Both the position numbers and the translations under genes were made by a program. The notes below the pieces were generated by a model. It made no database searches, had not been told where the DNA came from, and worked only from the letters and a program-made list of their open reading frames with translations. Below, one piece after another: positions 1,407 to 44,443 of a stretch of DNA of 64,000 nt. The stretch comes from an uncultured Parvularculaceae bacterium (lineage in GTDB: Bacteria; Pseudomonadota; Alphaproteobacteria; Caulobacterales; Parvularculaceae), in NCBI GenBank assembly GCA_913055785.1, contig CAJXLJ010000008.1:1-64000 (forward strand). The letters run 5' to 3'. Numbering within the stretch: the stretch's first letter is position 1; every line of letters starts with the position of its first letter.

Positions 1407-2150
1407 ATGAGCGAGATAATCTACTACGATCTCAAACAGGCGACCGGACCGGTCCCCAGCATGGCGACGCAGGTCGCCGGCGAGATCGGACGCCTGATCG
1501 TCTCGTCGGCCTATGCGCCCGGTCAGCTCGTCGAGGACGAAGTCTCGCTCGCGGAGCGGTATCAGGTCAGCCGCTCCGTCATTCGCGATGCCGTCAAGAT
1601 CCTCGTCGGGAAGGGGCTTCTGGAGGTGCGCCGGGGAATCGGCACCCGCGTCAGGTCGCGGCAAAGCTGGGGGCTGCTCGACGACGACGTCCTTGCATGG
1701 GCGCTGTCCGCGCCGCCGGATGCCGACATGCTTCGGAAGCTGATGGATGTCCGCCGGATCTTCGAGCCGAAGGCCGCGCGCTGGGCGGCCGAGAACGCGT
1801 CCACGGAGGCGCGGGGCGATATCGAGGCGGCCATGTGCGCAATGGAAGCCGAACAGGGATCGGTCGAGAGCTTCGTCGGCGCAGATGCCCGATTTCACCG
1901 TTCGATCCTGCGGGCGACCGGAAACGAATTCCTGATGGCGCTCGAAGGCGTCATATATTCCACGCTGCTGAGCAGCATCAGACTGACGAACGCAGACCCG
2001 CGTGACAATAGTACTTCGGTTCCATTCCATAGAGAGGTCTGCGATGCAATTATCGCTGCTGACGGCCGCCAGGCAGAATACTTGATGGAGCAACTATTGC
2101 TGGATGCCGGAAAGCGTTTGGACGAACGTGTTTCGTTGAATAAGAATTGA
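1407..2150 (+). CDS. GntR family regulator, FadR subfamily (FCD domain)
   Basis: This encodes a transcription factor of about 247 residues. The N-terminal winged helix is recognisable by SLAERYQVSRSVIRDAVKIL followed by the wing RRGIGTRV. The helical C-terminal FCD domain has the usual metal/ligand positions (D-x-R-F-H near VGADARFHRSIL and a later HREVCDAI). It lies directly upstream of the TRAP receptor gene in the same direction and probably controls that transporter in response to a sugar acid or carboxylate, as DgoR/UxuR-type regulators do; this is inference. I chose the ATG giving MSEIIYYDL; a TTG 36 bases upstream is also in frame. No strong ribosome binding site is visible. Confidence 0.8.
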   Translation: MSEIIYYDLKQATGPVPSMATQVAGEIGRLIVSSAYAPGQLVEDEVSLAERYQVSRSVIRDAVKILVGKGLLEVRRGIGTRVRSRQSWGLLDDDVLAWALSAPPDADMLRKLMDVRRIFEPKAARWAAENASTEARGDIEAAMCAMEAEQGSVESFVGADARFHRSILRATGNEFLMALEGVIYSTLLSSIRLTNADPRDNSTSVPFHREVCDAIIAADGRQAEYLMEQLLLDAGKRLDERVSLNKN

Positions 2151-2272
2151 GGGAACACAAACCCGGACTCAACCGGGCCTACTGACTTCGGTTCGAGCGT
2201 TCCGCTCTGCCGCCAAGACCGCCTCGCCGTCTCACGGCGCGGCAAACGAAGAGAAACCTTTGGGAGGACTTA

Positions 2273-3304
2273 ATGCTCAGAACACTGTCGAAGGCACTGC
2301 TGATCGGTGCTGCAAGCCTGTCCGTGGCCGCGCTGTCGGTCACAGCCGTCTCTGCCGCCCAGACAAAGCTGCGTATCCAGACGCACTACGCGCCGGAAAC
2401 GCCGTCGGGCAAACTGCTCGCCGAATATGTCGACAACATCCAGGTCATGTCGAACGGCGAGATCGAAGTGGAGATGTTCTACTCCTCGTCCGTCGTGAAA
2501 TCGGTCGAGACCTTCGATGCGGCGGCAACCGGAATTCTGGATTGCGACGCGACCGGCGGCGCCTATCAGACCGGTAAGAACCCGGCATTCCAGTTCGTCG
2601 GCGACATCATGGGCGGCTACGGAACGCCGGTTCAGCAGCTTTCCTGGCTGTATTACGGCGGTGGCATGGAAGCCGCGCAGGAGCTGTACAACAAGTACGA
2701 CATGCAGCTTGTCGGCTGGATCGTCTACGGCCAGGAATCGCTTGCGTCCACCAAGCCGATCGCCGGCATCGAGGACCTGAAGGACTGGAAGTTCCGCTCG
2801 CCGCCCGGCATGGAAACGAAGATCTTCGAGAAGCTCGGCGCCAAGCCGATCGTGATGGACTTCACCGAAATCTTCACCGCGCTTGAGTCGGGCATCATCG
2901 ACGGTGCGGACGCCTCGGGCATCGCCAACAATGTCGGTCTGGGTCTCTATGACATCGCCGACTATGCGAACTTCCCCGGCTTCCACTCCATGCCGTCCGA
3001 CCACATCGCCTGCAACAAGGCGGTCTGGGACGCCATGCCCGAGCACCATCGCCGCATCATGTCGACGGCCATCGGCGATCTGGCGCTGAAGAGCGCCCTG
3101 ACCTTCGAAAAGAAGAACGCCGAAGCCGTTGCCGATCTGAAGGCGAAGGGCATCACCGTGTCGGCATGGTCGGAAGAGGATATGCAGACGTTCCGCGATG
3201 CGGCCCAGGCAACCTGGCCGGAATTCGCCACGACGCCTGAAGCCAAGGCCCTCGTCGACGCGCATATCGCCTATCTCACCCAGCTCGGCCTGGTGAAGAA
3301 GTAA
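2273..3304 (+). CDS. dctP: TRAP transporter solute-binding protein (DctP family)
   Basis: This is a periplasmic receptor of 343 residues with a Sec signal peptide (hydrophobic segment after MLRTLSK, cleavage near VSAAQTK). The family is recognised by the hinge region KDWKFRSPPGMETKIF, which contains the carboxylate-binding Arg, followed by GAKPIVMDFTEIFTALESG and GADAS. Such receptors deliver organic acids to the DctQM membrane pair. The start is well supported by GGGAGG seven bases upstream of ATG. A strong stem-loop follows the gene, before dctQ. The sequence does not reveal the substrate; aromatic-like contacts near the hinge resemble the DctP7/TakP group that binds 2-oxo acids. Confidence 0.88.
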   Translation: MLRTLSKALLIGAASLSVAALSVTAVSAAQTKLRIQTHYAPETPSGKLLAEYVDNIQVMSNGEIEVEMFYSSSVVKSVETFDAAATGILDCDATGGAYQTGKNPAFQFVGDIMGGYGTPVQQLSWLYYGGGMEAAQELYNKYDMQLVGWIVYGQESLASTKPIAGIEDLKDWKFRSPPGMETKIFEKLGAKPIVMDFTEIFTALESGIIDGADASGIANNVGLGLYDIADYANFPGFHSMPSDHIACNKAVWDAMPEHHRRIMSTAIGDLALKSALTFEKKNAEAVADLKAKGITVSAWSEEDMQTFRDAAQATWPEFATTPEAKALVDAHIAYLTQLGLVKK

Positions 3305-3317
3305 GCCGAAACCCTGT

Positions 3318-3341
3318 TCCGGCCGGCCAAGGCCGGCCGGA
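3318..3341 (+). terminator. Stem-loop between dctP and dctQ
   Basis: There is a near-perfect 11-bp GC-only inverted repeat (TCCGGCCGGCC, AA, then its complement) just downstream of dctP, without a T-run. Such hairpins between receptor and membrane-subunit genes commonly stabilise the receptor mRNA or partly terminate transcription, so that receptor exceeds permease. The role here is inferred. Confidence 0.55.
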
Positions 3342-3474
3342 CAACTACGAAAGCCCGTGCGGTCGTTGCCGCGCGGGCAGACGGATTGCTGACGCCACCG
3401 ATCGCGGGCTTTTGCGGATCGCGGACACCGGCGGGCCGATGCGATGACGGCGCTTCGCGACCAGGGAGGGGGAT

Positions 3475-4140
3475 ATGGTTGAGAACGAACGCTCGGGGCC
3501 GGTCGACTGGGTAACCTGGACCTTCAGCCGTGTTGCGATGTGGGCCCCGGCGGCCGTCGTCGCCATCATCTTCTACGAAGTCTTCATGCGTTACGTGCTG
3601 TTCAAGCCGACGCTGTGGGCCAACGAGATGTCGCTGTGGATCGGCGGGGCGATCTACGTGACCTCGGGGCTGTACGCGATGCAGCAGCGCAGCCACATCC
3701 GTATCTACATCATCTATGACATCATGCCCCGCTGGGCGCAGAAACTGTCCGACTGCATCTCGGTCGCGTTGATCTGGCTTTTTACCATCGCCTTGTTCTG
3801 GGGCGGGTACAACGAAGCCCGCGACAAGCTTTTGCGGATGGAGACTTTCGGGACTGCGTGGGATCCACCCATTCCGGCCACGGTTAAGGTCGGCATTCTC
3901 GTCATCATCGCCATGGTCGTTATGTCGTGGCTGATCGGCTTTAACGTCATCAACCGCCACAACCAGGTGGTCGACATGATCTGGCGCACGCTTCTGGCGC
4001 TCACCGAGCCGGTGCTGCGTCCGATCCGCAATATGCTGCCGGCGATGGGCGGGCTCGATCTTTCGCCGCTCATTCTCCTGCTCGCGATCTTCTTCCTGCA
4101 GGGTATGAACTTCTGGCTGCGCGCGAAAATCGGGGCCTAG
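3475..4140 (+). CDS. DctQ small TRAP permease fused in frame to the C-terminal half of YggT
   Basis: Residues 1 to about 138 are a typical DctQ: four hydrophobic helices, RYVLFKPTLWANEMS after helix 1, and METFGTAWDPPIPATVK near the end. From about residue 139 the protein switches to the YggT family: VVMSWLIGFNVINRHNQVV, then LTEPVLRPIRNMLPAMGG and LDLSPLILLL. YggT and DUF167/YggU are habitual neighbours, and a DUF167 gene follows at once. No dctM follows, although TRAP transporters need one. The frame is therefore a chimera of two unrelated genes, made by recombination or by sequence assembly. Start: ATG preceded by AGGGAGGGGGAT. As a functional DctQ it would be orphaned here. Confidence 0.75.
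   Translation: MVENERSGPVDWVTWTFSRVAMWAPAAVVAIIFYEVFMRYVLFKPTLWANEMSLWIGGAIYVTSGLYAMQQRSHIRIYIIYDIMPRWAQKLSDCISVALIWLFTIALFWGGYNEARDKLLRMETFGTAWDPPIPATVKVGILVIIAMVVMSWLIGFNVINRHNQVVDMIWRTLLALTEPVLRPIRNMLPAMGGLDLSPLILLLAIFFLQGMNFWLRAKIGA
3889..4140 (+). other. YggT-derived segment (5'-truncated yggT)
   Basis: This marks the part of the preceding frame that belongs to YggT, a small membrane protein implicated in osmotic shock tolerance and cell-division/septum integrity in some bacteria. The YggT second half is intact to its stop codon: the LTEPVLRPIR motif, LDLSP and a final hydrophobic helix. Its own start and first helix are missing. The boundary was placed by protein family similarity, not by a visible base signature, and could shift by some 15 bases either way. 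Confidence 0.6.
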
Positions 4141-4142
4141 CG

Positions 4143-4460
4143 ACGGCCGCCTCATTTTTCAGACCATCATCCAAAGGCGCCGACCTATCGCTGCGCGTCA
4201 CGCCCGGCGCGGCGAAAAACGAGATTGCAGGACTGTGGGAAGGCGCCGATGGCGAGCAGCGCCTCGCGGTGAAAGTGACGGCGCCGCCGGACAAGGGCAA
4301 GGCCAACGCCGCTGTCGTGAAGCTTCTTTCAAAAGCGTTGAAGCTGCCGAAGTCGGCGTTCGAAATCACCGCCGGCGAAACCGCGCGATTGAAGACGCTT
4401 CGCATTGACGGCGATGAAAGCGAGCTTGCCTCAAAGCTCCTCGCGCTTATCGAAGCGTGA
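4143..4460 (+). CDS. DUF167 (YggU) family protein
   Basis: This is a small cytosolic protein of the YggU family. The hallmark sequence is the strand LSLRVTPGAAKNEIAG, then VTAPPDKGKANAAV and SGETARLK-like AGETARLKTL. The function is not established in any organism; it is normally encoded next to yggT, as here. The start is a puzzle: no ATG, GTG or TTG lies in frame ahead of the conserved N-terminal strand. An ACG at 4143, two bases after the preceding stop, would give a protein beginning (M)AASFFRPSS of usual length (105 residues). The GTG at 4269 would cut off the first third of the fold. ACG may be a true rare start or a mutated ATG. Confidence 0.6.
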   Translation, partial: TAASFFRPSSKGADLSLRVTPGAAKNEIAGLWEGADGEQRLAVKVTAPPDKGKANAAVVKLLSKALKLPKSAFEITAGETARLKTLRIDGDESELASKLLALIEA

Positions 4461-36636: not shown

Positions 36637-38625
36637 TCAAACAAGCTCGGCATCAGTCATAATCTCAATAATGACAGGGCCGTTATATTCGATGCCTCGC
36701 TGTAATTCGGTTTCAAGCGCCGCCGCATCCGTAACACGAATACCTAAGCCGCCGCAGGACTGCGCGAACTCGGCAAAGTTCGGATTGCGCAATGACGTTT
36801 GCCAAACCGGCCACTCTCCGCCGCGTTGCTCCTTTGAAATTTTACCGAGTTCATCGTTGTTCAGGAGTATGTGGGTGATATCCATGTTGTATTTCACGGC
36901 GGTCGTGAATTCCATGGCGTACTGACCAAAGCCGCCGTCTCCAGATATGGATATAATCTTGCGGCCGCGAAATTCTTCGAAGTCTTGCTTCGCCGCCCAT
37001 GCGCCCATGGCTGCCGGAAATCCGAATCCGATTGAGCCAAGATATCCTGACATCAAAATGCGTTGACCGCAGGGTTCAAAATACCGCCCAAAAGAATATG
37101 TGTTATTGCCCACATCCACGGGCATGACAGCGTCGCCCGGCGCTACTTTCGTAAGAGCCGCGAATACCGACGCGGCGTTTATGCCCTTGCCGCGATTGTC
37201 AGCGAGACGGCGTTCCTTTTCTCGCCGCCAGATCGCCCAGCGGTCTGAAATCTCTTTTCTCTGGTCGACAGCAGACCTTTTGGCCGGCGTTTTCTTTTCT
37301 ATCCCTTTCAGAGTTTCACCGATTTCCCCCCAGACGGGCAACGCAACCGCATGCCCTTTGCCAAGATGCATACGGTCAAAGTCGATCTGCACAATCGGCT
37401 TTGAGGGCTCAATGCCGGTGTGATGTGAAAAAGACGCGCCTATGGCGATGATCAAATCGCATTCATTCATGAACCACGAAGCGATAGGCGTGCCGGAACG
37501 GCCAAGGACGCCGCCGGCCAAGGGGTGTGTATCCGGAATTTGCCCTTTGGCTTTGAATGTCGTCAGCACGGGACAATTCAAGTCTTCCGCGAGGTCAATG
37601 ACTGCCTTCATCGATTCCCGTGCGCCATAACCGACAACGATAAGCGGGCGTTTGGCGCTATGAATTCTTTCTACCGCCGCCTCTATAACATCATCGGTCG
37701 GCGCCATGAGCGCAGGAACGAGCCGTCCAGTTGGGCTTCCCGCTTTAACGTCCGTTGCTGGAAGTGTCTGCGCATCGTCTGGAAAGATCATGACAGAGAC
37801 GTCGCGTTCGACGATGGCGGTTTTCATGGCCAAAGATGTAGTCTCGCCGTAATTCGATGCATGCAGGACAAGACCGTTGAATTTTGCAAGCGGTGCAAAA
37901 GCGCTATGAAGGTCGATGTCCTGAAAGGCGAAGGGTGAAAATACCTGCACCTGCACCTGTCCGGCGCAAGCGATAACGGGCGCGCGGTCAACCTTGGCGT
38001 CCCATAACCCTGTCATTAAATTTGTGGCGCCGGGGCCTGCGATGGACAAACAGGCGGCAGGTTTTCCGGACAGCTTGGCGTAACCGGAGCAGGCAAAGGA
38101 CGCGGCGCCTTCGTGACGAATGCCGATATAAGAGATATTGCCTGCTTCTTCCTGTCTTCGGAATGCATCAGCGAGTCCGAGGTTTGAGTGCCCGACCATT
38201 CCAAACACTCGCTTCAACCCCCAATTCACCATCGTTTCCGCAACGACATCTGTCGAAGTGCGAACATGCTCAGTCTCAGGTGGCACGCCCACGTAAACGC
38301 CATCATCGCGCAACTCGACCGGAAAAGTTTCCTGCCCTGAATCTTCATGACCGCCGGGTGGTTTGCCGGTTAACGGATCAAAATCCCATCCGTGCCAGGG
38401 GCATCGAATCCAGCATTTGCCGCCTTCGCCCTTTTCAATAGACCCTTCTCCCAAAGGACCGCCCTGATGCGGACAACGGTTATCCATTGCTACGTATTGC
38501 CCGTCAAAATGCACGAGAGCGAGCGTCTTCACGCCGGCGGTCACGCTCATCACCCGACCTTCCGGTAACTGAGATTTGGCTGCTACGCGATGCCAGCGGA
38601 GTGTTTTTGAAGACGCTTCAGTCAT
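36637..38625 (-). CDS. Rieske [2Fe-2S] domain fused to a ThDP-dependent enzyme (pyruvate oxidase/ALS-like)
   Basis: This encodes 662 residues. Residues 1-115 form a Rieske ferredoxin domain with the complete cluster motif C51-P-H53-Q-G-G and C75-P-W-H78-G-W. After a short linker, residues ~122-662 are a full three-domain ThDP enzyme: pyrimidine-site Glu172 in RHEGAAS, AGPGATNLMTGL, the central nucleotide-fold domain, and the diphosphate motif ISGDGGFGQ ending in ILLNND. By family it should decarboxylate a 2-oxo acid and could pass electrons from the ThDP adduct straight to its own Fe-S cluster. The substrate is unknown. It diverges, with 223 bases between, from the Rieske/glutamate-synthase operon. 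This architecture is unfamiliar to me. Confidence 0.85.
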   Translation of the reverse strand: MTEASSKTLRWHRVAAKSQLPEGRVMSVTAGVKTLALVHFDGQYVAMDNRCPHQGGPLGEGSIEKGEGGKCWIRCPWHGWDFDPLTGKPPGGHEDSGQETFPVELRDDGVYVGVPPETEHVRTSTDVVAETMVNWGLKRVFGMVGHSNLGLADAFRRQEEAGNISYIGIRHEGAASFACSGYAKLSGKPAACLSIAGPGATNLMTGLWDAKVDRAPVIACAGQVQVQVFSPFAFQDIDLHSAFAPLAKFNGLVLHASNYGETTSLAMKTAIVERDVSVMIFPDDAQTLPATDVKAGSPTGRLVPALMAPTDDVIEAAVERIHSAKRPLIVVGYGARESMKAVIDLAEDLNCPVLTTFKAKGQIPDTHPLAGGVLGRSGTPIASWFMNECDLIIAIGASFSHHTGIEPSKPIVQIDFDRMHLGKGHAVALPVWGEIGETLKGIEKKTPAKRSAVDQRKEISDRWAIWRREKERRLADNRGKGINAASVFAALTKVAPGDAVMPVDVGNNTYSFGRYFEPCGQRILMSGYLGSIGFGFPAAMGAWAAKQDFEEFRGRKIISISGDGGFGQYAMEFTTAVKYNMDITHILLNNDELGKISKEQRGGEWPVWQTSLRNPNFAEFAQSCGGLGIRVTDAAALETELQRGIEYNGPVIIEIMTDAELV

Positions 38626-38656
38626 GATGAAAGTTTCCTTTGGGGAATCGTACTCA

Positions 38657-38669
38657 CATGAATTTCATG
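38657..38669. promoter_or_regulatory. Palindrome in the divergent promoter of the Rieske locus
   Basis: CATGAA-T-TTCATG is a perfect 13-base palindrome 31 bases ahead of the ThDP gene start, in the only divergent gap of the locus. Its A/T-centred symmetric form fits a LysR or similar regulator; a lysR gene lies at 46259. A second symmetric pair, AAAATGCA at 38673 and TGCATTTT at 38752, lies in the same gap. The role is inferred. Confidence 0.4.
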
Positions 38670-38848
38670 CCGAAAATGCATTTGCCAAAATCCATCTCAG
38701 CAATAACCCTGAAATGGGTGTGGGGCGATGATTCGTGCGCCCTCAGACATTTGCATTTTAGAGCGCGTTTACTAGGATGGCGCAAATCAAAATATGGCGA
38801 TGGCCCTAGCTCGCTTGAGCCCGCCGTACCAAGCATGAGAAATAAAAA

Positions 38849-40471
38849 ATGGGCCAAAAGTGGATTCCTGTCGCCAAGTGGTCTGAGTTGGAAGATCGTA
38901 AGCCTGCCTATGGACTGGTTGGTGAAGTCGATCTTGTCATAGTTCGTCATGACGAAAAGGTATCAGTCCTATACGGGCGGTGTTTACATCGTGGAGCGTT
39001 GCTTGCGGATGGCCATGTCGATGGCGAAAACCTGATCTGCGGGCTGCATAATTGGGACTACCGCCTCGATACGGGCGTCAGTGAATATAATAACCATGAG
39101 GTTTTGCAGAAATTCTCTACGAGAATAAAAGGCGGAAAAGTATTCGTCGATGAAGATGAGATTAATTCGTGGGCGAAGGACCATCCGCAACCCTTTCGTC
39201 GCGATCAATATCTCGGACTATACGCTGACACGCATCCGGAACCTGAAGAACCGCATGTCGGTCTTATCCAGGGGTATGCGCGTGACGGGCTGTCCAAAAC
39301 TGGTCATCACGGCGTTGCGGCGGCTATGGGCGTTCCCAGAGACGACGTTCCAAGTTGGGATGACATCCAGTTTATTACTGCGCAACTCCATCGCGTCCCA
39401 TTGCTTGACGATGAGCCTATCGAAACGACAGCGGTCATTGGACCCGGCGCCAAAAAGCCTTTAAAATTGGACATTCCTCTCTTCGTATCTGACATGAGTT
39501 TTGGCGCATTGTCGCGAGAAGCGAAAATAGCGCTGGCCAAGGGTGCGGAAAAAGCCGGGACGGGCATTTGCGCAGGCGAGGGCGGCTCTCTTGATGAGGA
39601 GCGGCGCGCGAATAGCCGTTATTTTTATGAACTCGCTTCGGCGCGGTTCGGATTTTCATGGGACAAGGTTTGCGAATCCGCGGCGTTTCATTTCAAGGGC
39701 GGTCAGGGCGCAAAAACGGGCACCGGCGGACATCTGCCCGGCGCGAAAGTCACCGATGAGATTGCAAAAGTCCGCGGCCTTAAACCTGGCGAGGATGCAA
39801 TATCACCCTCTCGTTTTCCTGAATGGACAGAGCCGGCTCAGTTTCGAGATTTTGCAGAAGAGGTTCGCGAAACGACCGGGGGGATTCCCATCGGATTTAA
39901 GTTGTCGGCGCAGCATATTGAAAAAGACATTGATGCAGCGCTGGAAATCGGCGTTGACTATATCATTCTAGATGGTCGCGGCGGCGGCACTGGGGCGGCC
40001 CCGGTGATTTTTCGCGATAATATTTCTGTGCCGACAATTCCGGCTTTGGCGCGGGCGCGTCGGCATCTTGATAGATCCGGCGCCAGTCAAGTTTCACTCA
40101 TTGCAACGGGCGGTCTGCGTAAGCCTGCGGACTTCGCCAAAGCAATGGCGCTGGGGGCAGATGCGGTCGCACTTTCCAATGCGCCTATGCAAGCCATTGG
40201 CTGTCTTGGCATGCGCGCCTGCCATACAAATAATTGTCCGGTAGGGATCGCTACGCAGAAGGAAAATTTGCGCGCGCGGTTGGAGATTGAAATATCCGCA
40301 ACCCGTCTGGCGTACTTCTTTGAGGCAGCGACCGAACTGATGACGCTGCTTGCGCGTGCATGCGGGCATCGCAGCCTTTCGGACTTTTCTCCCGACGATC
40401 TGACGACATTCAAACGCGATATGGCGGAACTATCCGGCGTCGCTTTTGGCGGCGTAGGAGAGTGCTCATGA
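38849..40471 (+). CDS. Rieske domain fused to a glutamate-synthase (FMN, 3Fe-4S) domain
   Basis: This encodes 540 residues. Residues 1-105 are a Rieske-type domain with C45-L-H47 and C64-G-L-H67; after a ~50-residue linker, residues ~160-540 are the FMN-binding TIM barrel of glutamate synthase (SDMSFGALSREAKIALAKGAE, GEGGSLDEERR, FKGGQGAKTGTGGHLPG, DGRGGGTGAAP, and the 3Fe-4S cysteines in CLGMRACHTNNCPVG). There is no N-terminal glutaminase domain and no pyridine-nucleotide subunit. By analogy with ferredoxin-dependent GltS, the Rieske domain could supply electrons to the FMN; the amino donor and acceptor are unknown. First gene of a tight five-gene run. Confidence 0.87.
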   Translation: MGQKWIPVAKWSELEDRKPAYGLVGEVDLVIVRHDEKVSVLYGRCLHRGALLADGHVDGENLICGLHNWDYRLDTGVSEYNNHEVLQKFSTRIKGGKVFVDEDEINSWAKDHPQPFRRDQYLGLYADTHPEPEEPHVGLIQGYARDGLSKTGHHGVAAAMGVPRDDVPSWDDIQFITAQLHRVPLLDDEPIETTAVIGPGAKKPLKLDIPLFVSDMSFGALSREAKIALAKGAEKAGTGICAGEGGSLDEERRANSRYFYELASARFGFSWDKVCESAAFHFKGGQGAKTGTGGHLPGAKVTDEIAKVRGLKPGEDAISPSRFPEWTEPAQFRDFAEEVRETTGGIPIGFKLSAQHIEKDIDAALEIGVDYIILDGRGGGTGAAPVIFRDNISVPTIPALARARRHLDRSGASQVSLIATGGLRKPADFAKAMALGADAVALSNAPMQAIGCLGMRACHTNNCPVGIATQKENLRARLEIEISATRLAYFFEAATELMTLLARACGHRSLSDFSPDDLTTFKRDMAELSGVAFGGVGECS

Positions 40472-40698
40472 TAGTTGGGGAGATGATTGTCATCGGCCTT
40501 GGCGTCTGGTTTGGTCTTGGCGGTTTGGTTGCTTTGATTTTTCTTGACTTCGGCGTTTCGCGGATTGATGAAGCAGCAAAAGGCGCTAGCTTTCTCTTTC
40601 GACCAATGATTTTTCTCGGCTGTACTATTTTGTGGCCGGCGGTTCTCTTTCGTTGGTTTTCCGGTGATAAAATTAACGAGCAGAATGAGGAATCATAA
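40468..40698 (+). CDS. Small membrane protein (76 aa) of the Rieske locus
   Basis: Its ATG overlaps the preceding stop (ATGA), so it is translationally coupled. Two hydrophobic helices (EMIVIGLGVWFGLGGLVALIFL and FRPMIFLGCTILWPAVLF) flank a short polar loop, and the tail is charged. No family recognised. Size and place suggest an accessory subunit for the membrane cytochrome encoded two genes downstream; this is inferred from context only. Confidence 0.7.
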   Translation: MIVGEMIVIGLGVWFGLGGLVALIFLDFGVSRIDEAAKGASFLFRPMIFLGCTILWPAVLFRWFSGDKINEQNEES

Positions 40699-40854
40699 AT
40701 GAAGAGACCTCATCGGGGCATGCACCTTCTTACTTGGTTAATTCTCGGCCCGGCGATTCTGGCTGTGGGGATTGTTGCGTGGTTGCAGCGTCCCGAAACC
40801 CCGTATGCCGACATTCCGGACATAATAGAAGCCGATAAATCGAGCTTGGATTAG
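40699..40854 (+). CDS. Single-span small membrane protein (51 aa) of the Rieske locus
   Basis: A 51-codon ATG frame begins directly at the end of the preceding gene (no gap) and ends two bases before the next start. The peptide is MKRPHRGMHLLTWLILG..., one hydrophobic helix (LLTWLILGPAILAVGIVAW) followed by an acidic periplasmic or cytoplasmic tail (YADIPDIIEADKSSLD). The N-terminal Lys/Arg cluster predicts the N-terminus inside. It is packed between two membrane-protein genes, which supports a real gene. Confidence 0.65.
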   Translation: MKRPHRGMHLLTWLILGPAILAVGIVAWLQRPETPYADIPDIIEADKSSLD

Positions 40855-40856
40855 TT

Positions 40857-41921
40857 ATGGGCCATCAATACAAGGCAGTGCAATGGAACGGCAACAAAGT
40901 CGTTTATGACATTTATGTCCTCGGGTTTATCGCGCTATTTGTCGGCGTTTTCATGTTTGTCGGATTGCAAACACATGAAAGCGGCCACCGGGCTGACCCG
41001 GTCGTTCTAGCTATCAGGGCGTTGGGTACGACAGCCTTCATGCTGCTTACGATAATCCTCGCTATCGGACCGCTCGCACGTCTGAACAAGAGGTTTTTGC
41101 CGTTGCTTTATAACCGGCGTCACTTTGGCGTTTTGACATTCCTTGTGGCGTCTGCCCATTTCGGTCTGGCGCTCCTTTGGTATCATGGCGGCGGGCCATT
41201 GAATCCGCTTGTGTCGTTGTTTTCTTCAAACCCGCTTTACGATTCCATTCCGGGCTTTCCGTTCGAAGTTCTAGGCTTCGTCGCATTCCTCATAATGATG
41301 ACGATGGCGGCGACAAGCCATGATTTCTGGCTAAACAACTTGGCTGCGCCGGTCTGGAAGGCGCTGCATATGCTCGTCTATCCGGCCTATGCGCTTTTGG
41401 TGATGCATGTTGTGCTTGGCGCTCTAATGACGGAAAAATCCATGGTTTATCCGGCCATGACGGCGGCGGCCTTTATCGGTGTCACACTGCTTCACTTAAT
41501 TGCTGGCGTGCGTGAGTGGCGCGCCGATAACGGCATGAAATCTTTGAAATCCAAAGGTTGGGTTGATATTTGCGCACCAGACGACATTGCCGATAATCGT
41601 GCTGTGATTGCGCCTTTGCCAAAGGGTGATCGCATCGCTGTCTTTCGTTACGACAGAAAGATATCTGCAGTAACCAACGCGTGCCGACATCAAAACGGCC
41701 CTCTCGGAGAAGGTCGTGTTATCGACGGCTGCATCACATGTCCGTGGCATGGCTGGCAATACCGGCCAAACGACGGCGTATCGCCGCCGCCTTTTACGGA
41801 AAAGATTTCAACTTACAATGTCAAGATTGAAAACGGGCGCGTGCTTGTCGATCCAAAACCGAATCCGCCCGGAACGCATGTTGAACCTGCGGTTATTCCT
41901 GCAGGCGGAGGCGAGGCATGA
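40857..41921 (+). CDS. Ferric-reductase/MsrQ-like membrane cytochrome fused to a Rieske domain
   Basis: This encodes 354 residues. Residues ~15-215 hold six helices with paired His typical of heme-b ligands in the ferric reductase-like superfamily: RRHFGVLTFLVASAHFGLAL, then WKALHMLVYPAYALLVMHVV. Residues ~232-335 form a Rieske domain with C276-R-H278-Q-N-G and C295-P-W-H298-G-W. Electron flow between quinone or heme b and the soluble Fe-S cluster is the expected activity. It is the third Rieske fusion in one locus, overlapping the next gene by 4 bases, so subunits of one complex are likely. Confidence 0.85.
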   Translation: MGHQYKAVQWNGNKVVYDIYVLGFIALFVGVFMFVGLQTHESGHRADPVVLAIRALGTTAFMLLTIILAIGPLARLNKRFLPLLYNRRHFGVLTFLVASAHFGLALLWYHGGGPLNPLVSLFSSNPLYDSIPGFPFEVLGFVAFLIMMTMAATSHDFWLNNLAAPVWKALHMLVYPAYALLVMHVVLGALMTEKSMVYPAMTAAAFIGVTLLHLIAGVREWRADNGMKSLKSKGWVDICAPDDIADNRAVIAPLPKGDRIAVFRYDRKISAVTNACRHQNGPLGEGRVIDGCITCPWHGWQYRPNDGVSPPPFTEKISTYNVKIENGRVLVDPKPNPPGTHVEPAVIPAGGGEA

Positions 41922-42715
41922 GTAAAACGAAAGGCGTTATTGATCCTGCTGCAGTCGATAAGGAAGAGATGTTTATCGGCTGGGCGCCGGCGCCGGCGGT
42001 AGACAGGCGATTTCTGCTGGCCGCTTTGCCGTTTGGTCTTTTGGGCGCCGGCGGCGCAAGCTGGCTGGTTGCAAGCGAGCTTGGCGACCCGGGCGCGGGC
42101 GAATGGCTGACAAACGCGACGCATGAGGTTACCGGTCTTTTGACGGCGGCGCCTTATCCCATGATCAGAGTTGCCGACCCCTCGGGGCCTTACGGCATGC
42201 GAACAGTCCTTCTTGTCGCGCAAGGAAAGTGTACAGCGGCTTTAAAATTCGGCGTCCATGAAGCATCGCTCGTTACGGCCTCAGGTGTCCTTATTCAGCG
42301 TAAAAATCGTCAAATGCTGGAGGTTCCCCCGTTTCTCGAAAAATGGCTGGAGCCGGCGGAAATCTCGTTGAGCAGCGACGTTGCCGATCCAACCCCAGTA
42401 AATCTTGGAAGCGCGCGTCTTTCCGGCACAATCATGGATTCTAAATGTTTCTTCGGCGTCATGCGTCCAGGTCACGGCAAGACGCACAAGGCTTGCGCCA
42501 GTCTTTGCATTCGCGGCGGCATTCCGCCGAGCTTTTGGGCGCGTACGAGAGACGGGCGAGAATCCATTATGCTCATGACGGACTCAAATGGCGGGCCGAT
42601 GTCGATGGATATTTTACCGTATGTGGCTGATCCCGTAGAGGCGGAGGGGGAAGTCGTTCAGGTCGGTGACTTAATTCAGTTCCGCGCTGACGCAAGCGCC
42701 TATCGCCGCATATAG
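41918..42715 (+). CDS. Membrane-anchored protein with C-x15-C-x3-C motif
   Basis: This encodes 265 residues. An N-terminal hydrophobic helix at about 29-50 (FLLAALPFGLLGAGGASWLV) follows a stretch with Arg-Arg, so the bulk is probably periplasmic. A central beta-rich region is followed by the striking element DSKCFFGVMRPG (C177), HKACASLCIRGG (C193, C197) with two nearby His. I have seen similar C...GxMxPGxGxxHxxCAxxCIxGGxPP elements in uncharacterised redox-linked proteins, but know no function. A metal or heme site, or redox-active thiols, are possible. The start overlaps the cytochrome-Rieske stop. Confidence 0.75.
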   Translation: MSKTKGVIDPAAVDKEEMFIGWAPAPAVDRRFLLAALPFGLLGAGGASWLVASELGDPGAGEWLTNATHEVTGLLTAAPYPMIRVADPSGPYGMRTVLLVAQGKCTAALKFGVHEASLVTASGVLIQRKNRQMLEVPPFLEKWLEPAEISLSSDVADPTPVNLGSARLSGTIMDSKCFFGVMRPGHGKTHKACASLCIRGGIPPSFWARTRDGRESIMLMTDSNGGPMSMDILPYVADPVEAEGEVVQVGDLIQFRADASAYRRI

Positions 42716-42785
42716 AGTGTAATTGTAGGGCCGCCCATGTAGGAAGCGCCTTACAGGCTCTGGACCAAGATGGGATGCGCCGTAA

Positions 42786-43190
42786 ATGACGAAAACACTG
42801 AAATCAATAACGTCGCCAAACGTCATGAAACCGATTGGCCCTTATAGCCATGTTGTAACATTTGGCGACTGGATCACAATTAGCGCAATCGCTGGCGTCA
42901 ATCCAACGACCGGCGAGTTGGCCGGCCCTGATGTCAAGTCGCAGACAGAGCAAATATTAAATGCATTCGAAATATTATTGGAGGCTGCGGATTCCAATCT
43001 CGAACATATTGCCCACGTCAACGTTTTTCTAAAATCAATGGATGATTTTTCGGAAATGAACGAGGTTTACGAAAAACGGATGGGCGATTGGCGACCTGCG
43101 CGGACTTGCATAGCGGTGTCGGACTTGCCCAAGCCGGGAGCCCGGCTCACCATGAACCTTACTGCAGTCACGGCCGTAAAAAATACCTAA
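42786..43190 (+). CDS. RidA family protein (enamine/imine deaminase)
   Basis: This encodes 134 residues with the YjgF/RidA signature: PIGPYSHVVTFGDWITIS, then ARTCIAVSDLPKPGARLTMNL with the catalytic Arg and the loop typical of the group. RidA hydrolyses reactive 2-aminoacrylate and other enamines/imines released by PLP or oxidative enzymes, giving a 2-oxo acid and ammonia. Its place after the Rieske operon (70-base gap) hints that an imine is formed by the locus. It tail-overlaps the antiporter gene by 4 bases. Confidence 0.88.
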   Translation: MTKTLKSITSPNVMKPIGPYSHVVTFGDWITISAIAGVNPTTGELAGPDVKSQTEQILNAFEILLEAADSNLEHIAHVNVFLKSMDDFSEMNEVYEKRMGDWRPARTCIAVSDLPKPGARLTMNLTAVTAVKNT

Positions 43191-44443
43191 GGATTCGCGC
43201 CAGTATCTGTTGCAACGACATCGACATCAGCATGTTTTTTTGCGGCGGCGGTTCCGCCGTAGAGTTTCGAAAACGGAGCGGCAGTGGCACCATGTAAAAT
43301 GACGCTTAGAAACACGGTCACATAAACAATTGCTTCGATTTCAGAAAACCGTCCCATTTCTTCATGTTCAACGGCAATCAGCAAGAAAAGAATTGAAGCC
43401 AATCCACGCGGGCCAAACCAACCTATAAACAACGTTGACGGCAGTTTGAGTTTGAGGCCAACCAAGGAAAGTGCTGTTGGGGCCATACGAATTACTGTTA
43501 GGCTCAAGACCGCATAAAGTACGCAAACAGTCGTAAAATGAGAAAAAGCGCTAGGAAGCAAAACCGCGCCGAAGAAAAAGAAAATGATCAAGCTGAAAAG
43601 TTGACCTTCCTCTTCGACGAAATTGGTGAGCGAGCCTGCCCGCTTTGAGCAAAAGCTGCCAAAAACCAGTCCGCCGACAAACGCAGCAATAAACCCGTTG
43701 CCGCCTGCAATGTGAGCGCAAAATAATGTAAGAACGGCAACGCCAATACATGTCAAATTACGAAAGGCGTGCGCAATCCACTCTCGTTCGTCAGCAAAGT
43801 GAATGAATTTGCCCAAGAGTCCGCCGGCGATTGCGCCGACAATTACACCGACGATTATTTGCCGCGCCGCAAAGCCTATCCAATACCCGACGCCATGCCC
43901 TTCAATTCCCATCATCGAAAATGCAAGCGCAGCGAAAAGCAAAACGGCAGGCAGCGCAAGGCCGTCATTGAGGCCGGATTCTACCAATATCGCCTGACGA
44001 ATTCTCTCCGGCACATATCTGCTGGTTACCACAGCCAGACCAAGGGCTGCATCAGTCGGCGCCAGGATCGCGGCAATGAGAGCAGCTTCCTGCCAGCCTA
44101 AGTTTGGAAAGAGAATCATCGCTGTCGCTGCGCCAAGCAGAATCGTTAATGGCAGCGCGACCAGCAAAAGCCGTTTCGGAATGAGCGCCTCACGAACAAG
44201 ATTGCGGCTGTTGGTCGATGCGGCGTCAGCAAACAAGATAAAGCCGAGGGTTAGTTCGCCGAACCCCTCAAGGACTGCGTTGTCGATTTCAATAGATACG
44301 ATCCCAAGCCCGGCCTGTCCGAACGCCAGTCCAACCAGCATAAAGGCCATTGGCGCCGATAATAACGTCGAAGAAAGTCGGGCGGAGAAAGCGCCGTAAA
44401 AAACGATGCACACCGCAATGACGATAAGAGGTTCGGTGATCAC
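43187..44443 (-). CDS. CPA1-type Na+/H+ antiporter
   Basis: This encodes 418 residues with about 12 hydrophobic helices. NhaP-type motifs are visible: FILFADAASTNSRNL in helix 3, ILAPTDAALGLAVV (the conserved T-D), and LVESGLNDGLALPAVL (the N-D ion-binding pair). It exchanges Na+ or K+ for protons at the inner membrane. It ends against ridA in convergent orientation and follows the peptidase gene in the same direction (45 bases). A role in balancing the ion gradient of the nearby redox locus is only a guess. Confidence 0.87.
   Translation of the reverse strand: MITEPLIVIAVCIVFYGAFSARLSSTLLSAPMAFMLVGLAFGQAGLGIVSIEIDNAVLEGFGELTLGFILFADAASTNSRNLVREALIPKRLLLVALPLTILLGAATAMILFPNLGWQEAALIAAILAPTDAALGLAVVTSRYVPERIRQAILVESGLNDGLALPAVLLFAALAFSMMGIEGHGVGYWIGFAARQIIVGVIVGAIAGGLLGKFIHFADEREWIAHAFRNLTCIGVAVLTLFCAHIAGGNGFIAAFVGGLVFGSFCSKRAGSLTNFVEEEGQLFSLIIFFFFGAVLLPSAFSHFTTVCVLYAVLSLTVIRMAPTALSLVGLKLKLPSTLFIGWFGPRGLASILFLLIAVEHEEMGRFSEIEAIVYVTVFLSVILHGATAAPFSKLYGGTAAAKKHADVDVVATDTGANP

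Follow-up and report, generated by a model that had tools for sequence, protein, structure and literature searches.

A divergent locus at positions 36637-43190 of contig CAJXLJ010000008.1 (GCA_913055785.1), from an uncultured Parvularculaceae bacterium, was analysed in its window, i.e., the whole 64,000-nt stretch of DNA. The locus may encode a Rieske-based plug-in transmembrane electron-transfer system, in which interchangeable Rieske domains would link oxidoreductases of the cytosol to a heme conduit spanning the membrane; the chances of this reading being right or wrong were judged to be about equal. The reading is based on gene order, domain fusions, invariant ligand residues, charge topology and gene co-occurrence. 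Its membrane part comprises two small proteins (X1 and X2), a predicted heme membrane protein with a Rieske tail (FRD·Rieske) and an anchored protein (ANC), together termed the core. Its soluble part would be formed by Rieske·ThDP, a thiamine-diphosphate (ThDP) enzyme, and Rieske·GltS, which carries a glutamate synthase domain. Other loci and genomes are cited by L and G numbers, respectively.

Conservation of the Membrane Core

Scanning genome contigs for FRD·Rieske yielded 74 loci, with L102 and L103 matching in the Rieske domain only. Together with loci from the class sample (240 alphaproteobacterial genomes, searched at E ≤ 1e-120 for Rieske·GltS and Rieske·ThDP and at E ≤ 1e-40 for the core), 83 core loci (L019-L101) were examined with profiles, and 81 of them had enough sequence to be testable. 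The profiles were partly built from these same loci, most of which are metagenome-assembled genomes (MAGs), and some flanks were short; the loci are not independent because many come from a single family, Parvularculaceae. Of the 81 testable loci, 79 have X1 ahead of FRD·Rieske, and one of the two misses (L022) does have X1, fused to X2, by eye. The same fusion was seen by eye in Robiginitomaculum and others. ANC adjoined or was fused to FRD·Rieske in 75/81 loci, and three of the remaining six (L087, L088 and L095) carried ANC elsewhere in the genome. In-frame fusions with ANC at the C-terminus of FRD·Rieske occurred in L089, L090, L097 and L098, which are MAGs labelled Hydrogenedentota, Deltaproteobacteria, Phycisphaerales and Acidobacteria. 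The record labels of the core loci include Planctomycetota, Acidobacteria, Hydrogenedentota, Bdellovibrionales, Myxococcales and Deltaproteobacteria, and the retention of the block order across loci labelled as several phyla ruled out a chance arrangement.

FRD·Rieske and ANC were also found together on plasmids and at the level of whole genomes. The five Rhizobium plasmids that carry FRD·Rieske also carry ANC, and the two of them with gene tables examined have the block SDR (short-chain dehydrogenase/reductase)-small-small-FRD·Rieske-ANC. In the class sample, ANC was present in 12/240 genomes and FRD·Rieske in 13/240, with 12 in common; moreover, ANC was present in 38 of the 41 core genomes reached through the loci. 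The near-invariant order and the natural fusions support, at the level of sequence, that X1-X2-FRD·Rieske-ANC acts as one machine.

Several observations were made around the core. L041, a contig labelled as a Nitrosomonas sp. MAG, carries a locus 79-82% identical to the proteins of the window and is probably mis-binned. Many Phycisphaerae loci (within L053-L083) have a recurrent gene block downstream of ANC, which in L056 encodes AhpC/TSA, DoxX, DinB, TANGO2 and VTT-domain proteins; these flanks in L056 gave no hint of function. YHS-domain proteins, possibly a metal-related partner, were located near the core in two unrelated lineages (L020:6816-7286 and L056:9937-10965, the latter under the Pfam cut-off).

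Anatomy of FRD·Rieske and ANC

FRD·Rieske scored 50.2 bits against Pfam Ferric_reduct (cut-off 28), which places it in the six-helix ferric reductase domain (FRD) superfamily of STEAP, NOX and MsrQ. R87, H89, H101, H155, H171, H184, H213 and the four Rieske ligands were invariant in 33/33 sequences. The spacings R87-14-H101 and H171-13-H184 fit the YedZ/STEAP1 pattern, an equivalence drawn from spacing only and not from superposition. In proteins of that type, the first canonical heme histidine is replaced by a conserved arginine, the equivalents of His-115, His-209 and His-222 are retained, and the relevant passages of the FRD survey assign them the surface-proximal heme only (PMC3591440). 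Two canonical NOX-type hemes (His89/His101 and His171/His184) were considered and set aside because the NOX helix-3 spacing of 14 lands on the invariant Arg87. A second heme or a flavin could occupy the inner site.

The loop charges alternated in the 33 sequences, with the even loops net positive and the odd loops not, when the helix limits were set by hand from hydropathy. This positive-inside distribution suggests a cytosolic location for the Rieske domain, as for the N-terminus and the loop that follows helix 2. In the natural fusions, one helix follows the cytosolic Rieske domain; hence, the predicted OB domains of ANC would be outside. The AlphaFold2 (AF2) model of the natural fusion in L090 had a mean predicted local confidence (pLDDT) of 82.3 and a predicted TM-score (pTM) of 0.80. 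Its membrane part matched STEAP2 (Z 15.2, root-mean-square deviation (rmsd) 3.7, 200 residues) as well as STEAP1, STEAP4 and NOX5, the whole range being Z 15.2-14.6 over 189-203 residues with rmsd 3.7-4.9, and its Rieske part matched the biphenyl-dioxygenase ferredoxin (Z 14.9, rmsd 1.8, 105 residues). Unrelated helical models can score Z 13-14, and the FRD assignment therefore rests on Pfam Ferric_reduct. A sequence-profile search of the PDB matched the Rieske part only.

In ANC, C177, H190, C193 and C197 were invariant in 45/45 sequences, giving the site C-x12-H-x2-C-x3-C, and D174, K176, G180, M182, P184, G187 and G201 were likewise invariant. The C-x15-C-x3-C motif named in the first-pass annotation was thus present, starting at 177. 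The three cysteines and one histidine may ligate a [2Fe-2S] cluster or a different metal, or function as thiols. The AF2 model of ANC alone (pLDDT 88.7) had one helix (27-54) and two beta domains. The top PDB matches in Foldseek were single-strand-binding and other OB-fold proteins, with one match under E 0.001. The best entry of the VIA list reached only Z 7.2 (rmsd 2.8, 76 residues), and the arrangement can for this reason be called no more than OB-like. The PDB profile search of ANC gave no significant match. DUF5818 was matched weakly by 6/45 members (best E 8e-4) and not by the window member. A twin-arginine translocation (Tat) signal was rejected since the twin arginine is not kept across the family.

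Rieske-Tagged Soluble Enzymes

In Rieske·GltS, the Rieske residues C45, H47, C64 and H67 and the [3Fe-4S] residues C452, C458 and C463 were invariant in 16/16 sequences, and the motif C-x5-C-x4-C at 452 was retained. Pfam placed the synthase domain, but no glutaminase domain, in the 540-aa protein. Its gene adjoins the core in Parvularculaceae, in L022, L090, L094 and L099 and in Robiginitomaculum (L057, L059, L066 and L075), and is divergent from it in L136. Relatives in L124, L125, L126 and a Vibrio plasmid (L132) were 65-68% identical in the catalytic domain, with two N-terminal CDGSH motifs replacing the Rieske domain. In L114 (positions 1649-4458, G074), the gene immediately downstream of Rieske·GltS encodes a class I/II aminotransferase and may be a clue to the substrate.

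In Rieske·ThDP, C51, H53, C75, H78, E172, F234, Q235 and E599 were invariant in 19/19 sequences; E172, F234, Q235 and E599 are presumably catalytic positions. In alignments read by eye, E599 lined up with the glutamate of E. coli PoxB and with a glutamine of acetolactate synthase, a match that hints at a 2-oxo-acid oxidase. Four relatives (L119-L122) have CDGSH domains ahead of the Rieske domain, and three of these also have Fer4_19. Because [2Fe-2S] modules are both added and swapped on GltS and ThDP enzymes, a connector role would fit.

Two of these relatives, L120:6491-11060 and L121:3677-8188 (genomes of 1.4 and 1.8 Mb), read CDGSH·Fer4_19·CDGSH·Rieske·ThDP, i.e., four iron-sulfur modules on one ThDP enzyme, and adjoin a gene for an IlvD/Edd-type dehydratase (by Pfam in L120 and by eye in L121). 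Rieske·ThDP is also present, at 51% identity, on a Mycobacteroides plasmid (L131:9013-10914), where an annotated cation:proton antiporter gene lies some 3 kb away.

A third fusion, of Rieske to an NADPH-dependent FMN reductase (Rieske·FMN_red), was found beside the core in L077:2650-3885, L086:8800-10146 and L123:6257-7381; in L086 and L123 it directly follows FRD·Rieske, whereas in L077 it comes behind ANC. It was present in 7/41 core genomes and 2/240 class genomes, one of the latter (G114) having no core match, and was rejected as a general partner on these counts. All three of the 41 core genomes lacking any ANC have Rieske·FMN_red, compared with 4/38 of those with ANC, and G216, with no ANC match, also carries it. 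This association is weak because several of the genomes are Rhizobiales, and a clade effect is possible.

Co-occurrence of the Core and the Soluble Enzymes

In the class sample, the core occurred in 13 genomes, the Rieske·GltS fusion in 7 and Rieske·ThDP in 12, and all three were found together in 6 genomes of 4 genera. Three more GltS matches begin past the Rieske domain and are of the CDGSH type. Genus-level Fisher tests, uncorrected for phylogeny, gave p values of 2e-5 for core-GltS, 8e-4 for core-ThDP and 1e-5 for GltS-ThDP. The core was present in six of the seven class genomes with Rieske·GltS, the seventh genome being 67% complete. The association held where the genes were not neighbours: in G123 the three lie each on a different long contig, in the fragmented assembly G227 they are on three contigs, and in G009 (a single contig) and G143, Rieske·GltS and Rieske·ThDP lie about 18-19 kb and 64-66 kb from the core, respectively, which is a loose neighbourhood and not one operon. 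Among the 41 core genomes (E ≤ 1e-100), Rieske·GltS was present in 9, Rieske·ThDP in 6 and both in 5. Furthermore, Rieske·GltS (59-60% identical) and Rieske·ThDP (58-59%) occur as a pair on three haloarchaeal plasmids, about 1.4, 17 and 4 kb apart, and a fourth (Haloferax) carries Rieske·ThDP with no Rieske·GltS match.

The linkage of the three Rieske proteins put forward in the first-pass annotation was therefore supported by co-occurrence even where they are not adjacent. The two soluble enzymes, which it had treated as fixed members, turned out to be optional, being present in a minority of the core genomes and together on haloarchaeal plasmids without the core.

Gene Organization and Neighbouring Genes

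All seven ORFs (open reading frames) of the first-pass annotation, including three Rieske fusions, were recovered at their positions from the ORF list and Pfam (Table 1). The start of X1 was set by homologue length; the mechanical ORF list puts it at 40360. Rieske·ThDP and Rieske·GltS are divergent, with 223 bp between them. Overlaps of 4 bp join Rieske·GltS to X1 and FRD·Rieske to ANC, and the gaps X1-X2 and X2-FRD·Rieske are 0 and 2 bp. RidA begins 70 bp past ANC, and its 3' end overlaps that of the Na+/H+ exchanger by 4 bp. The Rieske ligand motifs (C-x-H ... C-x2-H) are complete in all three fusions. ANC and X2 had no Pfam family at E ≤ 0.1, X1 had one match, below the cut-off, and ANC also had no NCBIfam match. 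FRD·Rieske is single-copy in the genome to which the window belongs, where Rieske domains were matched seven times, including the three in this locus.

Table 1. Genes of the locus and the adjoining exchanger gene (window coordinates).
Gene	Position	Strand	Length (aa)	Features	Pfam
Rieske·ThDP	36637-38625	-	662	N-terminal Rieske and pyruvate-oxidase-like ThDP enzyme	Rieske; TPP_enzyme N/M/C
Rieske·GltS	38849-40471	+	540	N-terminal Rieske and FMN/[3Fe-4S] glutamate synthase domain	Rieske; Glu_synthase (E 1e-90)
X1	40468-40698	+	76	Small membrane protein, two hydrophobic stretches	
X2	40699-40854	+	51	Small protein, single hydrophobic stretch	
FRD·Rieske	40857-41921	+	354	Six-helix heme membrane protein (predicted) and C-terminal Rieske	Ferric_reduct; Rieske
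ANC	41918-42715	+	265	One membrane helix and two predicted OB-folds outside	
RidA	42786-43190	+		Neighbour, judged outside the system	Ribonuc_L-PSP
Na+/H+ exchanger	43187-44443	-		Possible associated gene	Assigned by Pfam

The tight overlaps had been taken to imply one machine of seven genes. This holds for X1-X2-FRD·Rieske-ANC, on the evidence of order and fusions, and was rejected for all seven, since RidA was found in just 1/83 core loci, a near-identical one; the flanks of these loci differ in length. The flow of electrons from ThDP to GltS, the substrates and the clearing of imines by RidA put forward in the first-pass annotation are proposals at this stage. The co-occurrence check that had been suggested came out positive in the class sample for the core, Rieske·GltS and Rieske·ThDP. 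Rieske·FMN_red, the CDGSH replacement and the Na+/H+ exchanger were not mentioned in the first-pass annotation. The exchanger was near the core in 13/83 loci, near non-adjacent Rieske·GltS in 3/9 loci (L112, L113 and L141, two genera; none at L140, of the same genus as L112) and near non-adjacent Rieske·ThDP in 1/12 (L118), and on one haloarchaeal plasmid a Na_H_Exchanger gene lies between Rieske·GltS and Rieske·ThDP. Its presence near the loci is at most suggestive, and it was set aside as a core member.

Proposed Mechanism and Alternative Explanations

From these observations we infer which cofactors are bound, contact between Rieske domains, the direction of flow, the substrates and the chemistry of ANC. 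The cytosolic Rieske tail of FRD·Rieske would be a docking site that exchanges electrons with the Rieske domains of tagged enzymes, namely the ThDP enzyme (oxidative decarboxylation of a 2-oxo acid), the FMN/[3Fe-4S] GltS-type enzyme (amination or deamination) and, elsewhere, the FMN reductase. GltS could act as either donor or acceptor of electrons. One or two b-hemes would carry the electrons across the membrane, with X1 and X2 as small subunits. By analogy with STEAP, NOX and MsrQ, the electrons would most likely exit outward and reach ANC, the predicted double OB-fold protein of the periplasm; its C/H/C/C site may be an electron carrier or a reductase site. One possible mode, in view of the haloarchaeal pair, is direct coupling of ThDP to GltS. 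As the first-pass annotation had proposed, the natural reading is that electrons pass through the Rieske centres. A bolder version was regarded as possible though doubtful: a modular 'redox bus' built on a Rieske-tailed STEAP/MsrQ-like hemoprotein, on which unrelated cytosolic enzymes (a 2-oxo-acid decarboxylase, an amino-acid FMN enzyme and an FMN reductase) would dock by matching Rieske tags and export electrons to double OB-fold proteins of the periplasm, which would form a new carrier class with a 3Cys-1His site.

Several points weigh against the plug-in system. The support for it is computational, heme binding by FRD·Rieske is predicted from residues, and the fused Rieske domains could serve their own enzyme only. 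The core was absent from 6 of the 12 alphaproteobacterial Rieske·ThDP genomes. Neither Rieske·GltS nor Rieske·ThDP was found (E ≤ 1e-100) in any of the 19 core genomes labelled planctomycetes, and Rieske·FMN_red was present in one of these. Four planctomycete core genomes had 16 Rieske matches, four being FRD·Rieske; the other 12 were three ring hydroxylases, two small ferredoxin-like proteins, one bc1-like protein, two ferredoxin-Rieske proteins, one cytochrome-Rieske protein, one DAO-family flavoenzyme and two with no further domain, so that only one of the 12 was a Rieske-fused flavoenzyme. The core must have other partners, because these four genomes have none of Rieske·GltS, Rieske·ThDP and Rieske·FMN_red; stand-alone ferredoxins are perhaps the donors there. 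Among plasmids, the search for FRD·Rieske at E ≤ 1e-25 returned the five Rhizobium records only and none from haloarchaea, whose chromosomes were outside the search. The DAO-family protein is an FAD oxidoreductase with a C-terminal Rieske domain (L165:109-1758 in G261), away from the core locus examined.

A somewhat unlikely alternative is that two unrelated systems share the locus, the core being a self-contained reductase of a periplasmic substrate and the two soluble enzymes a soluble pathway in which decarboxylation of a 2-oxo acid directly powers reductive amination, as in the first-pass idea minus its membrane part. The three haloarchaeal plasmids, with both enzymes and no FRD·Rieske match on any, show that a replicon can hold the two enzymes while lacking the core, and the planctomycetes hold the core without either enzyme; both speak for this alternative. 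It is opposed by the presence of the core in six of seven Rieske·GltS class genomes (the seventh being the incomplete one) and by the adjacency of the core to Rieske·GltS in L022, L090, L094, L099, L136 and Robiginitomaculum; in the Robiginitomaculum genome G250, a search at E ≤ 1e-100 found no Rieske·ThDP. Distinctly unlikely is a commonplace cluster of unrelated metabolic genes that have recruited Rieske domains and share no electron circuit. Every family does have relatives elsewhere, genome contexts vary widely, and core genomes hold other Rieske fusions too; however, three enzyme chemistries bear the same domain add-on beside the same Rieske-tailed membrane protein, the CDGSH replacement affects the same enzyme, and co-occurrence extends to genes that are not adjacent.

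Within the plug-in system, a catabolic direction was considered and judged unlikely. Rieske·GltS would deaminate an amino acid, Rieske·ThDP would oxidatively decarboxylate the 2-oxo acid so formed, and four electrons would pass through the Rieske hub to the periplasm or a respiratory acceptor. The complementary chemistries of the two tagged enzymes, the missing glutaminase domain, the PoxB-like Glu at E599 in place of the Gln of acetolactate synthase and the aminotransferase gene after Rieske·GltS in L114 would agree with such a route. However, direction is not readable from sequence, the reaction known for GltS domains is the reductive one, and no recurring transporter or catabolic operon was seen in the loci examined.

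If the plug-in system is real, the STEAP/NOX/MsrQ superfamily would gain a transmembrane electron-transfer system in several bacterial phyla, in which Rieske takes the place of flavin on the donor side and the partner in the periplasm has not been described before. Iron-sulfur tags, either Rieske or CDGSH, would then be exchangeable, and the tag would set the circuit that its enzyme supplies.

Comparison with Known Systems

No description of Rieske·GltS, the Rieske-ThDP fusion, the X1-X2-FRD·Rieske-ANC operon or ANC was found in the literature searched, from which subscription literature was mostly excluded. The FRD + Rieske pairing itself is already known: it is listed as architecture M4, one modular extension among the domain architectures, with Rieske as the electron-transfer agent (PMC3591440). 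The passages of that survey on FRD + Rieske do not describe the operon, the partners or the function.

FRD·Rieske shares with MsrPQ (YedYZ), STEAP and NOX the six-helix heme membrane fold, the Arg87/His101/His171/His184 ligand pattern and a cytosolic donor side. It differs from all of them in its recurrent partner ANC, the small subunits X1 and X2 and the additional invariant His89, His155 and His213. With 45.2 bits against a cut-off of 130, it falls outside the MsrQ equivalog (NCBIfam NF003831), and no MsrP-type molybdoenzyme was present among the seven genes and two flanking genes, to which the search for MsrP was confined. Unlike NOX/FRE proteins, it has no C-terminal FAD/NADPH dehydrogenase domain by Pfam; the flavin/NAD(P)H tail is swapped for a Rieske ferredoxin domain.

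Rieske·ThDP belongs to the same ThDP family as PoxB and acetolactate synthase, with the invariant RHE glutamate, the Phe-Gln pair and the PoxB-like Glu, but adds an N-terminal Rieske domain and scores under the pyruvate oxidase equivalog (best NCBIfam PRK08611, NF006377; 364 bits, cut-off 742). Similarly, Rieske·GltS shares the FMN domain and the [3Fe-4S] cysteines with ferredoxin- and NADPH-dependent glutamate synthases, and departs from them in the lack of glutaminase and the fused Rieske domain. According to the relevant passages of two CDGSH studies, type 5 CISD proteins combine a pair of CDGSH domains with the FMN domain of glutamate synthase in one fusion, and the pairing of CDGSH with Rieske or Glu_synthase has already been named (PMC3174974, PMC5859297). 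The relatives in L124-L126 and L132 fit this type (PMC3174974). The window's Rieske·GltS, which has Rieske in place of the tandem CDGSH, does not; it has the same catalytic domain behind an N-terminal [2Fe-2S] module, which here is a 2Cys-2His Rieske domain linked to the FRD core.

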